Positions 11,695 to 31,621 of a DNA stretch of 64,000 nt are shown piece after piece. Position 1 is the first letter of the stretch. Every line of letters starts with the position of its first letter. Both the position numbers and the translations under genes were made by a program. Under the pieces are notes generated by a model, which did not search any database, was not told the DNA's origin, and saw nothing but the letters and a program-made list of their open reading frames with translations. The stretch comes from Achromobacter xylosoxidans A8 (GTDB lineage Bacteria > Pseudomonadota > Gammaproteobacteria > Burkholderiales > Burkholderiaceae_B): positions 5,518,001 to 5,582,000 of the forward strand of contig NC_014640.1 of the NCBI RefSeq assembly GCF_000165835.1, given 5' to 3'.

Positions 11695-12534
11695 CTAAAG
11701 CCCGAAGGCCTGAGCTCGGTACTGCACCGGACTCAGGCCTTTTAGCTTGAGTTTGATGCGTTCGTGATTGTAATAACGGATGTACTGGCGGATGCCCGCC
11801 TGTAACTGCGCGACGTTTTCGAAGCGATTCAGGTGGAAGAATTCGGACTTCAACGTGCCAAAGAAGCTCTCCATGGCGGCGTTGTCCAGACAATTTCCCC
11901 TGCGCGACATGCTTTGGGTAAGCGACCGATCTGCCAGCATGCGGCGGTATTGGGGATGTTGATACTGCCAGCCCTGGTCTGAGTGCAGGATGGGGCTGTC
12001 GGTGGGCTTGAGCCGCGCCAGCGCTTTCTTCACCATGGTGCCAATAAGCTTGAACACTGGCCGTTGGCTGGTCTCATAGGCCACGATCTCACCGTTATAC
12101 AGGTCCATGACCGGCGACAGATACAGCTTTTCGCCTCGTACCTTGAACTCGGTCACATCGGTAACCCACTTTTGGTTCGGCCGCTCAGCAACGAAGTCGC
12201 GCGCCAGCACGTTGGCCGCCACGTGATGCGACTGGCCTCGGTAAGAGCGGTACTTTTTGACTCGCACCAACGACTTCAGGCCCAGCCTCTGCATCAGCTT
12301 CTGTACCGTTTTGTGATTCACTAATTCCCCCGCCTGGCGTAACGCGGCCGTGATCCGGCGATAGCCGTAGCGGCCCTTGTGGCGTGCATAGACCGCACTG
12401 ATGCGTGCCTTCAAATCAGCGTACTGATCGGCAGCGCCCTGCGCCTTCAGGTGATAGTAGAACGTGCTGCGCGACAGTTTGGCTGCGCGCAGCAACCGTT
12501 CCAGCGGATGCTTATGCCTCAATTCTTGGACCAC
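11695..12534 (-). CDS. IS3-family transposase OrfB (DDE integrase domain)
   Basis: 279 residues counted from a GTG at 12534, but most likely made as the C-terminal part of an OrfAB fusion by -1 frameshifting. An HTH_21-like N-terminal segment is followed by an rve-type catalytic core with Asp126 (WVTDVTEF), Asp186 (LHSDQGWQ) and Glu222 (AAMESFFGTLKSE). The 35-residue D-E spacing is diagnostic for IS3 elements. It overlaps orfA by 16 bp. Confidence 0.95.
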   Translation of the reverse strand: MVQELRHKHPLERLLRAAKLSRSTFYYHLKAQGAADQYADLKARISAVYARHKGRYGYRRITAALRQAGELVNHKTVQKLMQRLGLKSLVRVKKYRSYRGQSHHVAANVLARDFVAERPNQKWVTDVTEFKVRGEKLYLSPVMDLYNGEIVAYETSQRPVFKLIGTMVKKALARLKPTDSPILHSDQGWQYQHPQYRRMLADRSLTQSMSRRGNCLDNAAMESFFGTLKSEFFHLNRFENVAQLQAGIRQYIRYYNHERIKLKLKGLSPVQYRAQAFGL

Positions 12535-13043
12535 TTGCGCTTTGCAACGAGCGCTTGGGTCTTTTCCGCTTCGATCAAGGCATCGAGCTTTTTTAGGTAG
12601 TCCAGCTCCGCTCGCAGGTTCGCGACCTCTTCGCGTAGCTCCTCCTCGGTCATGTCTTTGGGCACTGGCTCGGGGGGATACTTATGTGGCATGGCGCGTT
12701 GTCCTCTCGGCTGGGGCTCCAACGCCCCAATACCATGCTTATGATACTGAGCGCGCCATTGGCCTATCGAACCCGCTGACCGAATATCGTAGAGCGCGAC
12801 CACCTCTCGGTCTGACAGCCCCTCCCGCTCGGCGTGCTTCAACACCCTCAGCTTGAACTGCGCGTCATAGTGACCGGACTTCTTGGCCAAGGCCGCGCGC
12901 CCATGGATCTGAAAACCCGACACCCAACGCCGCAGCATCGAGTAGTCGACCTGCAGTTCAGCAGCAATCAACTCAATACTGTGTTGCCCTGATAAACATT
13001 TCTTGACCGCGCGCAGCTTAAAGCGCTCGTCGTACTTCGTCAT
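12519..13043 (-). CDS. IS3-family OrfA (helix-turn-helix DNA-binding protein)
   Basis: 174 residues from the ATG at 13043 (MTKYDERFKL). The open frame extends 11 codons further into the inverted repeat, but that start would lie within the IS terminus. Two HTH-like units (SIELIAAELQVDYSMLRRWV and a second around YDIRSAGSIGQW) are followed by a C-terminal coiled-coil (EELREEVANLRAELDYLKKL) typical of IS150-type OrfA. It binds the IS ends and dimerises. A GGGGG tract, the only Shine-Dalgarno candidate, lies inside a hairpin stem directly upstream. Confidence 0.92.
   Translation of the reverse strand: MTKYDERFKLRAVKKCLSGQHSIELIAAELQVDYSMLRRWVSGFQIHGRAALAKKSGHYDAQFKLRVLKHAEREGLSDREVVALYDIRSAGSIGQWRAQYHKHGIGALEPQPRGQRAMPHKYPPEPVPKDMTEEELREEVANLRAELDYLKKLDALIEAEKTQALVAKRKWSKN
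12588..12594 (-). other. Programmed -1 frameshift site
   Basis: On the minus strand the sequence reads CTA AAA AAG CTC in the orfA frame, so the heptamer A-AAA-AAG is in the canonical slippery register. Slipping back one base continues without a stop into the orfB frame, giving the OrfAB fusion transposase. Confidence 0.85.
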
Positions 13044-13050
13044 GTAAAAA

Positions 13051-13086
13051 CCCCCGAAGGTTGGATCTACGTCCAACTTTCGGGGG
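13051..13086 (-). terminator. IS-internal hairpin/terminator guarding orfA
   Basis: 15-bp stem (13051-13065 with 13072-13086, one mismatch on the minus strand) around a 6-nt loop. On the minus strand it is followed by TTTTT and then the orfA start region. It would stop transcripts entering the IS from the right and hides the GGGGG in front of orfA. Confidence 0.7.
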
Positions 13087-15055: not shown

Positions 15056-15129
15056 CTGGCTTATTTTGCTTCTTCGCAGGTTTGCGGGTTTGCAGGCGAA
15101 GGCCGTGTCGCTTCGTAGACCGCACGTCG

Positions 15130-15380
15130 TCGCGGACGGCTGGGTGGCGGGCGCGAGAGGATATTCATACGCAAGCCACCATCCCTCCCCCCCGACGGCG
15201 ACACCACCAGAAAACCAATCGCCGCATTCGCGCCAGCGATCACAATCACACTTAAAACAATGACGTATGTATTAATCGGCCGCCCGCGCGGCCGATTAAT
15301 ACGGGCAGCCCAAGACTCGCCCCCGACCACAGCTCCAGCAGCGCCACAGGCCAAGACGCACGTAGCCCGTCGGCGCGGGC
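15130..15380. repeat. Element P, copy A (palindrome-centred dispersed repeat)
   Basis: Bases 15181-15376 align without gaps to 31381-31576 at about 90% by eye; 15231-15330 has only two differences. At the centre, 15271-15300 form a perfect palindrome: 13-nt arms ATTAATCGGCCGC and GCGGCCGATTAAT around CCGC. Weaker similarity continues left to about 15130, including a hairpin with loop CATACGCAA. The minus strand is open through both copies (TYVIVLSVIVIAGAN is common to both), but the open frames diverge at both ends and have no convincing start, so it is called a repeat. It lies between convergent alaX and PAP2. Bases 15056-15129 hold nothing recognisable. Confidence 0.85.
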
Positions 15381-15536
15381 GGCGTGGCGGCTCGCAACCT
15401 CGATGCGCCCGAGGGAATCTGAAGGAAAGGCCGAAGGCCTTGACGAAGATGACGACGGGGCAGTCCGGAGCGAACGCTCCGGACCGCAATCGTGGGCGCG
15501 AGCCGCCACGCCGACCGCGCCGACGGGCGACCTACG
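15361..15536 (-). repeat. Element C, copy A (conserved core within long inverted arms)
   Basis: Inverted arms 15361-15395 and 15498-15536 pair over 34 of 35 positions plus a 4-nt insertion. The enclosed core 15396-15497, read on the minus strand, matches the core at 30843-30938 nearly base for base and holds two hairpins (15463-15484 with GTCCGGAGC arms; 15427-15441 with AAGGCC arms). The arm sequence is unrelated to that of copy B. On the minus strand it begins 31 nt after the PAP2 stop codon, in the sense of that gene. Possible structured 3-prime-UTR RNA or a small mobile element. Confidence 0.85.
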
Positions 15537-23501: not shown

Positions 23502-23577
<76 letters not shown>

Positions 23578-23616
23578 GTCAACGGCGAAGGATGCAGTAC
23601 CAGTTTGCAAGTCCAA

Positions 23617-23692
23617 GTCCCCTTCGTCTAGAGGCCTAGGACATCACCCTTTCACGGTGAGTACAGGGGTTCGAATCCCCTAGGGGACGCCA
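23617..23692 (+). tRNA. tRNA-Glu (anticodon TTC), copy 1
   Basis: 76 nt with encoded CCA. Acceptor GTCCCCT/AGGGGAC, anticodon loop CTTTCAC, T-loop GTTCGAATC. Confidence 0.97.
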
Positions 23693-23755
23693 GTCTTTCT
23701 GGCAGCAGTATGTAGTGATGCAGTTGAAGTGACTATGTTTTGAGTACGCCGCTGC

Positions 23756-23832
23756 GGAGCGGTAGTTCAGTTGGTTAGAATACCGGCCTGTCACGCCGGG
23801 GGTCGCGGGTTCGAGCCCCGTCCGCTCCGCCA
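23756..23832 (+). tRNA. tRNA-Asp (anticodon GTC), copy 1
   Basis: 77 nt with encoded CCA. Acceptor GGAGCGG/CCGCTCC, anticodon loop CTGTCAC, T-loop GTTCGAGCC. Confidence 0.97.
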
Positions 23833-23856
23833 AAAGCTCTCGCTCAGAGTCTTTCA

Positions 23857-23882
23857 AGAGCTCCGTTTTCGGGGCTTTTTTG
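23857..23882 (+). terminator. Intrinsic terminator after first tRNA triplet
   Basis: AGCTCCG pairs with CGGGGCT (one wobble) around TTTT, followed by a T-run. It separates the two tRNA triplets, so the second may need its own promoter or readthrough. Confidence 0.75.
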
Positions 23883-23935
23883 CTTTATATAGTGTGAGAC
23901 CTTGTTGTCTGAAGTTTGGGGCATCGAGGATCCTG

Positions 23936-24011
<76 letters not shown>

Positions 24012-24050
24012 GTCAGCAGTACGGTAGTAAAGTAGTTCTGTTTTGTTCAG

Positions 24051-24126
24051 GTCCCCTTCGTCTAGAGGCCTAGGACATCACCCTTTCACGGTGAGTACAG
24101 GGGTTCGAATCCCCTAGGGGACGCCA
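24051..24126 (+). tRNA. tRNA-Glu (anticodon TTC), copy 2
   Basis: Identical in sequence to 23617-23692 and 434 bp downstream of it. Confidence 0.97.
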
Positions 24127-24197
24127 GTCTTTCTGGCATGTAGTACCAAGCTGCCTTGACACCGCAGTGCATTGAAGAAGTCAGAGTAAACCGCTGC

Positions 24198-24274
24198 GGA
24201 GCGGTAGTTCAGTTGGTTAGAATACCGGCCTGTCACGCCGGGGGTCGCGGGTTCGAGCCCCGTCCGCTCCGCCA
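24198..24274 (+). tRNA. tRNA-Asp (anticodon GTC), copy 2
   Basis: Identical in sequence to 23756-23832. The spacer before it differs from that of copy 1. Confidence 0.97.
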
Positions 24275-30773: not shown

Positions 30774-30808
30774 CAGGTTCTGTTTCAGAAGCTTCAGGTT
30801 CTTGAGAC

Positions 30809-30972
30809 GCCAGTCGCGGCGGCGGGCCCAGAGGCGCGGGGCAACGATTGCGGTCCGGAGCCTTCGCTCCGGACTTCCCCTTCGTCATCTTCGTCAAGGC
30901 CTTCGGCCTTTCCTTCAGATTCCCTCGGGCTTATCGACGCCCCGCGCCTCTGGGCCCGCCGCCGCAACTGGC
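30809..30972 (+). repeat. Element C, copy B (conserved core within long inverted arms)
   Basis: Perfect 27-nt inverted arms 30816-30842 and 30939-30965, extended by a further six pairs beyond one mismatch (to 30809 and 30972). The core 30843-30938 matches copy A in the opposite genomic orientation, with hairpins at 30853-30874 (GTCCGGAGC arms) and 30896-30910 (AAGGCC arms). It lies in the sense of the secreted-protein gene, starting about 36-42 nt after its stop. No T-run follows the closing arm. Confidence 0.87.
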
Positions 30973-31315
30973 TCTGCTGGCTAAAACTTCCCGGCCCCGG
31001 GGGCGAACGGTGTGCTTAGGGTTCTCGCCGCCGGTGGGGGCTGGCGATGGATCTTGCGGGGCCCGCCCCCGGCCGGCCGCGCGGGCGGCCTCTGGGGGCT
31101 TACGCGGTTTCTGGCGATTGACGATGACGCTGCGCGCTGGTGGAGGATCGGTTCGAACACCTACAACAGGTGGCCATGACGACCGTGATGTCTCGCGCTC
31201 CCGCCCGTCATTGTTTGGAATGGGGGGGAGTGCCAGTATTTGGCCTTCGACGCCAACAGACCACGCGCGAGCGAGATCTGACATTTCCTCCATCGCCACT
31301 TGAACCCCGACGCTG
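30973..31315. other. Intergenic stretch with GC palindromes, no gene seen
   Basis: About 340 bp between the two repeats. It contains short GC palindromes, including 31075-31090, which is the inverse of the 16-nt centre of the element P palindrome (could be chance at this GC content). No open frame on either strand has credible coding character. Confidence 0.5.
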
Positions 31316-31377
31316 GATGGGTGGCGCGCGGGCGTAGTCTGCATGCGCAAACGACTACGCGCCGCGCGCCACCCATC
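31316..31377. repeat. Long hairpin at the left end of element P copy B
   Basis: Arms 31316-31339 and 31353-31377 pair over 24 bases with one single-base bulge, around a 13-nt loop with CATGCGCAA. Copy A has the loop (CATACGCAA) but only a six-pair stem. Confidence 0.75.
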
Positions 31378-31380
31378 ACC

Positions 31381-31580
31381 GCCCCTCCCCCCTGACGGCA
31401 ACGCCAGAAGAAATCCAATCGGCGCATTCGCGCCAGCGATCACAATCACACTCAAAACGATGACGTATGTATTAATCGGCCGCCCGCGCGGCCGATTAAT
31501 ACGGGCAGCCCAAGACTCGCCCCCGACCACAGCTCTAGCAGCGCTACAGGCCAAGATAGCGGCAGCCCGTCGTCGCGGGC
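31381..31580. repeat. Element P, copy B
   Basis: Counterpart of 15181-15376. Central perfect palindrome 31471-31500 with 13-nt arms. The right end (31561-31590) carries a short, uninterrupted version of the arm sequence that surrounds element C in copy A (CGACCTACGAA is shared). Located between the convergent secreted-protein gene and the dienelactone hydrolase gene. Confidence 0.85.
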
Positions 31581-31621
31581 GACCTACGAAAACCTGCGAC
31601 GAACCCGTATAAACCCACGCA

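Follow-up and report, generated by a model that had tools for sequence, protein, structure and literature searches.

A structured repeat found twice in the window—the stretch of 64,000 nucleotides of Achromobacter xylosoxidans A8 that was analysed as a whole—belongs to a family of paired and single units whose long stems change from copy to copy with pairing retained. The strand kept foldable is, in most cases, the one antisense to the neighbouring gene. The element is tentatively interpreted as an old, non-autonomous, transposon-like repeat whose active form would be a folded single strand of DNA.

Both copies described in the first-pass annotation, A and B, were recovered where it had placed them, with the shared core and the complementary arms (48 nt at 85% and 40 nt at 93%). 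Strand X corresponds to the + strand at copy A but to the minus strand at copy B, and Y is its complement; at both copies Y has the sense of the immediately upstream gene (minus strand at A, as the PAP2 gene; + strand at B), so that the cores of A and B, mutually inverted in the window, each lie in gene sense downstream of a stop codon, as had been noted. The hairpin of copy A ends about 32 nt past the PAP2 stop (15568, minus strand; PF01569), and that of copy B starts 36 nt past the stop (30773) of a small + strand ORF for which no Pfam match was obtained. On X, the big hairpin of copy A (15361..15536, +) is matched by the covariance model, CM R1, at 15364-15528 with 176.7 bits (other strand, 47 bits), and that of copy B (30809..30973, −), which likewise folds, with 177.3 bits on the minus and 50.8 bits on the + strand. 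Folded as DNA, copies A and B reach z-scores of −10.9 and −11.0, with none of 200 shuffles as good in either case; the RNA fold of copy B has a z-score of −13.9. The covariation structure, mapped by the covariance model, places the left arm of copy A at 15365..15395 and its pairing partner, the right arm, at 15498..15528 (both +), and the arms of copy B at 30942..30972 (5′ on X) and 30809..30839 (3′ on X; both −). Structure, DNA fold and covariance model agree on two enclosed helices. Helix A of copy A (15408..15459, +) has GA-rich internal loops and an apical c(GAA)g triloop, a loop shared by helix A of copy B (30878..30929, −); helix B is a GTCCGGAGC hairpin with loop GAAC in copy A (15463..15484, +) and carries loop GAAG in copy B (30853..30874, −). 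That the arms of A and B are unrelated holds for their sequences but not for their register, which is that of the arms of other copies.

The element proved wider than had been stated, since both copies are ends of larger inverted dimers. Copy B forms the left end of a dimer spanning about 800 bp (30790-31590), in which only a short stem-loop is left of the right hairpin: beyond the second hairpin, H2, of its own unit (31064..31099, −; apex GGCCGCCCGCGCGGCC on X) follow a central hairpin, H3, recognised by eye and similar to hairpins in other dimers (31317..31376, no strand assigned), the H2 of the right-hand unit (31469..31503, +), and the collapsed end itself, a foot plus short hairpin from which the core has been lost (31562..31589, +), resembling a scar in the relative locus L113. 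Copy A forms the right end of another dimer (~15106-15536), the left side of which is damaged; the H2 of copy A, the stem of which varies with compensation between copies, lies at 15269..15302 (+), and a remnant of the left foot and arm was recognised by eye at 15106..15150 (+), where the relative locus L111 has an intact type II hairpin. A T-run is absent at A and at B, as the first-pass annotation had observed, and Rfam 15 at gathering score returned only tRNAs in the window, with no match at the element. Among the other contents of the window are a cluster of three tRNA genes duplicated in tandem (23502-24271; 434-442 bp apart, 98-100% identity) and an ORF that by eye resembles an IS3-type helix-turn-helix transposase (12519-13076, minus).

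Searching the host genome for matches to copy B's 96-nt core, a step that had been recommended, yielded at least 28 cores (40 of 52 candidates scored), which form 22 sites once cores up to 1.5 kb apart are merged and of which A and B are members. Two core types are distinguished, type I (..GGGCTTATCGACGC) with 16 and type II (..GGGCGCATCGA) with 12 copies, and six type I/type II pairs stand head to head with 553-650 nt between cores. The stretches separating the paired hairpins are inverted homologues of each other, from which a basic unit of about 350 nt follows, with the order foot, long stem, core, stem, linker and H2; single units outside pairs are also present. The H2 stem also varies with compensation among copies, and a genome-wide search with its apex motif gives 21 matches in forward and 26 in reverse orientation (with palindromic versions counted twice), compared with 0 and 2 for the reversed motif used as a control. 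A full-element alignment was set aside as too noisy. Among pairs of neighbouring cores, 51 of 55 are X-divergent, four are tandem and none has the reverse arrangement; the corresponding figure in other genera is 21 of 22. Most dimers have 0.3-0.9 kb between cores, and X is the strand whose 3′ end points outward at each end of the dimer. The sites are unevenly spread along the own contig, with none of 22 in the 2.9 Mb between 2.61 and 5.53 Mb (about 9 expected, P ~7e-6, the limits having been set post hoc).

On X, each unit folds into a 31-bp variable stem around a three-way junction with two small hairpins, followed by the second variable hairpin. In 37 diverse copies this structure is paired in 94.9% of 2252 cells, both sides have changed in 36 of 61 pairs (in the arms, 29 of 31), and none of 500 shuffles scores as high on any of five pairing measures; shifting the partner by one to three columns lowers pairing to 35-43%. 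These copies are 37 of 71 cluster representatives, chosen for simple length and aligned by plain MAFFT rather than fitted to a structure, with the family itself as the source of the structure. One of two possibilities raised in the first-pass annotation, covariation in a structured nucleic acid, is therefore very strongly borne out. The other, that a small core had entered unrelated palindromes already in place, is unneeded and was rejected, as foot, linker and second hairpin are homologous between copies, partly across genera. Of the earlier contrast between a conserved core and changing arms, the second half stands, but the core also covaries, in the NGAT/ATCN helix and in the apical stem: the last pair of that helix is T-A in 104, C-G in 71, G-C in 13 and another combination in 5 of 193 copies. 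In the arms, G-C and C-G pairs often replace one another; substitution paths could be followed in only 8 usable pairs of same-site copies.

Which strand is kept foldable can be read from the irregular pairs. In stem columns 9-34 of 193 unique copies—obtained from 337 core hits after partial cores, contig ends and exact duplicates had been dropped—199 are G-U/G-T on X and 13 on Y, beside 78 transversions and 34 gaps. Because related copies remain among the 193, one representative per 75% arm-identity cluster was also used (n = 45), giving 37 on X against 5 on Y. Exchanging the arms between copies sets a baseline of 507 on X against 291 on Y; composition therefore explains only part of the bias, and the 45 representatives depart from this baseline with P = 0.0004. 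The asymmetry is weaker in other genera than in Achromobacter, with 37 on X against 13 on Y in 70 unique rows and 25 against 11 in 41 representatives, both tested against equality. With RNA parameters X is also the more stable strand in all 45 representatives, and with DNA parameters in 44 of 45, partly because wobble pairs score on X. The folding strand is thus X, which in most cases is antisense to the neighbouring gene. The main idea of the first-pass annotation, a structured RNA in the 3′-UTR of the sense transcript, was rejected as the folding strand on these counts, and maintenance of the fold on X also contradicts any purely symmetric process. The wobble asymmetry by itself cannot separate RNA from DNA.

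The loops bear on that distinction. In Achromobacter, the apical loop of helix A on X is c(GNA)g in 147 of 162 called cases (31 of 193 copies not called; GAA 69, GCA 61, GTA 13, GGA 4), and loop B consists of GNA followed by G or C in all 183 called cases (10 of 193 not called; GAAG 136, GAAC 44, GTAG 2, GGAG 1). Among 70 rows from other genera, 51 called A loops comprise 16 c(GCA)g, 23 c(GNAB)g (B = G/C/T) and 12 others, and 24 called B loops comprise 11 c(GNAB)g, 10 c(CCGC)g and 3 others. Neither a GNRA nor a UUCG tetraloop occurs among the called loops of Achromobacter or of the other genera. The d(cGNABg) loop is one of four stable DNA tetraloop classes (Nakano et al. 2002, as cited in PMC5090098), and d(GNA) triloops closed by a C-G pair are described as a stable DNA family, although the same source states that the interaction of GNA with its closing pair is portable between polymers (PMC5815330). 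Judged by their letters, the loops of X belong to these stable DNA classes and would contain sheared G:A pairs, which favours DNA without proving it. The same logic was applied in the opposite direction to the STAXI motif, which Weinberg et al. 2010 leaned towards assigning to RNA on account of its UUCG loops (PMC2864571). The c(CCGC)g loops and the three others at position B outside Achromobacter, 13 of 24 together, fit neither motif and count against the single-stranded DNA reading.

The position of the element relative to genes is strongly biased. At 25 of the 28 own units, the closest upstream gene called is co-oriented with Y; two of these 25 genes encode IS transposases (L021, L025), two lie more than 600 nt away (L003, L006), and the other 21 are not IS genes and end within 112 nt of the match start. 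Co-orientation with Y was found at 122 of 146 genus sites and at 29 of 37 sites in other genera with a gene called within 400 nt, those being 146 of 173 and 37 of 71 sites, respectively; genes were called by a codon-position GC rule in place of a gene finder, and each species' copy of an orthologous site was counted separately. At the 122 sites the core starts, in gene sense, a median of about 95 nt past the stop codon. Where both neighbours were called (n = 135), 79 genus sites lie between convergent, 35 + 16 between tandem and 5 between divergent genes. Copies lacking complementary arms, or scattered at random positions and senses relative to genes, had been named beforehand as evidence against a structured element; the other copies turned out to keep complementary arms and a non-random position and sense.

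Sites A and B were compared across relatives with regard to gain and loss. At site A, where 30 loci including the own one were compared (L110 is cut by a contig end, and the upstream gene was not found in L126), the stretch examined contains no core at 28 of 29 relatives' loci; the only relative with a core, L111, has it in opposite orientation, and L113 retains the core-less scar. Many relatives show, by eye, ordinary-looking terminators instead of the element. At site B, at least a partial core is present in 13 of 30 loci, the own included. Scars recognised by eye, consisting of the foot alone (L088) or H2 alone (L093), show that loss takes place. Against mobility count that empty sites may partly be losses as well and that no target duplication was established. 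In other species, a different, GTGTCTGACACC-rich repeat occupies the same intergenic spots (L117, L119, L123, L086, L094), which implies that these spots are invaded repeatedly.

The family is nearly universal in the genus. With at most 21 candidates scored per genome, the core was detected in 42 of 43 genus genomes, the own included; several species have about three cores, and in the remaining member, G024, neither this search nor a closer re-search found any. The same search of 151 family genomes returned 6 positives, all of the same genus, and an exact 28-nt core pattern occurs in at least 120 stretches of named genomes, the 80 listed titles being all Achromobacter. A covariance model with arms, which the first-pass annotation had recommended, was built from the 37 copies and matches 60 of 268 family genomes in 11 of 43 genera; closer re-search of 18 genomes from other genera was positive throughout (1-21 copies each). 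In these genera the letters of stems and hairpins differ, and the GAAGG/GACGA loop, the three-way layout and the flanking boxes are largely kept. No match was obtained by blastn (1e-5) in 50,697 phage and 72,556 plasmid records, from which records very near the own genome were possibly left out, nor with Rfam 15 at gathering score in 20 loci; at a relaxed threshold only animal and plant microRNA models appeared, far under their cut-offs. Sites near argG/kup, rodA and thiC (genes named from protein letters) are common to Achromobacter and another genus, which suggests very old residents at a few loci, although sites common to genera suit old residents as well as mobile elements. Overall, the family looks old and slow to move, with decay through deletions at its palindromes.

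No mobilising gene was found between or beside the units examined. The Y1 transposase PF01797, the sole candidate family searched genome-wide, occurs in 10 of 43 genus genomes but not in the own one. An autonomous, coding version of the element was also rejected, as the contents of long pairs do not recur except for a Mutator-family IS: they include a LysE-type gene (L233), two ORFs without Pfam match (L066, L267), ordinary metabolic genes over 4.7 kb (L139) and, in the 1.9-kb L378 of G141, no gene convincing by eye. A transposase of the Mutator family (IS256-type) lies between the units of three long pairs of G087 (L375-L377) and, in Achromobacter, of L264, with a PF00872 match in L375 and L264; such an IS also adjoins the own units L021 and L025, and in the own genome a transposase of this family stands between or beside units at loci L140 and L141. 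Accounting for 11 of 427 neighbour proteins, this transposase is the one gene that recurs. Since its position relative to the units varies, the IS is tentatively read as a secondary insertion, though it may have a role in mobility. That a known DNA transposase of this kind moves the element, the fold serving merely for transposase binding, is judged very improbable despite this recurrence: L377 holds pieces of more than one IS copy, the IS end in L025 cuts the unit foot, and the usual spacing of dimers leaves no room for an IS. A different insertion is seen in L312 (G037), where an IS110-family transposase (PF01548, PF02371) lies within the core at model position 50/51, and IS ends like those of L312 occur by eye at the same core point in L213 and L227; an IS110-family element thus seems to target this palindrome, and IS targeting of REP palindromes has been reported (PMC1525189).

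Intergenic mobile palindromes are already known as a kind. REP sequences are recognised as single-stranded DNA by TnpA-REP. Like the present element, which is 51/55 in one orientation, REP, BIME and REPIN form intergenic palindromes with often oppositely oriented neighbours, located mostly downstream of genes and where the neighbouring genes are convergent or tandem (PMC3733652), and mobilisation of REP by TnpA-REP has been proposed (PMC8266576). However, a REP measures 20-40 bp whereas the present unit has about 350 nt with a three-way junction; of the own copies, 7 of the 12 of type II and none of the 16 of type I show, by eye, a GTAG tag at the foot on X; and most listed copies of other genera have AG without GTAG there. 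With no general tag, and without a Y1 transposase in the own genome, membership in the REP/RAYT system was rejected. In the telomeres of Streptomyces, two G:A-closed hairpins on a 3′ overhang are enclosed by pairing of palindrome I to part of palindrome IV, a fold that has been likened to the rabbit ears of parvoviruses (PMC4513846). The present element resembles these ends in the stem enclosing two hairpins, in the outward 3′ strand and in the sheared G:A pairs predicted from its letters, but lies at many sites inside a 7.0-Mb contig rather than at the ends of linear molecules, and its stem is much longer and variable. Other likenesses are by description. ERIC sequences are likewise long intergenic palindromes able to fold as hairpins (PMC2267715), but differ in size, dimer architecture and hosts. 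Bor-2 of Bordetella bronchiseptica, catalogued in 2008 as an intergenic, structured repeat of 167 nt with 17 members (PMC2267715), comes close in length to the present hairpin and may be a catalogued relative. The Burkholderiales-1 motif (Weinberg 2010) is a candidate motif from the same taxonomic order, tabulated there with a doubtful structure and no Rfam number (PMC2864571). In the portions of the literature on intergenic repeats and motifs that were surveyed, no description recognisable as this element was found, nor one combining strand-specific folding with an inverted-dimer architecture.

Starting from the observed fold, strand and architecture, the tentatively favoured interpretation would add a single-stranded DNA state, an enzyme, transposition and a function. 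X would act as single-stranded DNA, and since X has its 3′ end outward at each end of a dimer, both ends would be recognisable in the same way by a putative enzyme acting on single-stranded DNA in excision, copying or end repair. Insertions would persist mainly just past genes, usually between convergent ones, because there they would do least harm. Template switching inside the long palindrome would help to restore matching arms, and selection on X would then decide which irregularities survive. Such switching probably contributes to the upkeep of the arms; alone, it would not yield the strand bias. That template switching between the arms of long palindromes accounts for all of their complementarity, with no selection on folding, therefore seems the least probable of the explanations considered: although the process is reported to create and maintain hairpins (PMC8794818) and the frequent G-C/C-G swaps agree with it, the 199 to 13 bias, the conserved GA loops, the GNA loops and the second hairpins kept across genera are not expected from it. 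Also improbable, if not to the same degree as a sense-strand RNA or a known transposase, is a variant in which the inverted pairs are integrated, gene-less derivatives of a linear replicon or transposon with 'rabbit ear' 3′ ends like those of parvoviruses or Streptomyces; here, each round of end copying would rewrite one arm from the other, so that the long stems would keep changing.

The main rival, ranking next after the single-stranded DNA model and judged unlikely though deserving weight, is that X functions as an antisense RNA, each unit giving a structured transcript of about 350 nt that would run outward from the dimer's middle in the direction of the neighbouring gene's 3′ end, fold into the big hairpin and perhaps be bound by protein. 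The G-U asymmetry on X, the very strong covariation and the conserved unpaired boxes upstream of the hairpin in several genera, such as CACGAAGC..CAAGAACCCC, would all agree with it, whereas no promoter or terminator on X was recognised by eye, the called loops include no GNRA or UUCG, and Rfam gives no match. The sense counterpart, a 3′-UTR structured RNA or terminator, is very improbable even though the core follows the stop codon in gene sense at 122 of 146 sites and terminators stand at site A in many relatives, for Y has 199 A-C mismatches against its 13 G-U pairs, folds worse than X and lacks a T-run at A and B. Palindromes extruding as double-stranded, cruciform DNA at convergent gene ends, as topological or protein-binding insulators, would suit the 79 of 135 convergent sites, and stable loops should help extrusion; both strands extrude, yet only X is kept foldable, and G024 without a core as well as several species with about three speak against such a role, which is accordingly thought improbable, on a par with the linear replicon.

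Palindromes between bacterial genes are commonly interpreted as sense RNA elements, whereas here it is the antisense strand that is kept foldable, with loops of DNA type, and copy number and divergence are high enough for the foldable strand to be told. Achromobacter includes opportunistic pathogens. If X acts as RNA, the genus would hold a large antisense RNA family absent from Rfam; if the linear-replicon reading were true, the element would represent an as yet undescribed proteobacterial lineage of mobile, telomere-like DNA. If X acts as single-stranded DNA, as tentatively proposed, the family would offer a natural system in which to test how folded single strands mobilise or replicate DNA, and strand asymmetry in wobble pairs, together with loop class, could serve to assign function to a strand.
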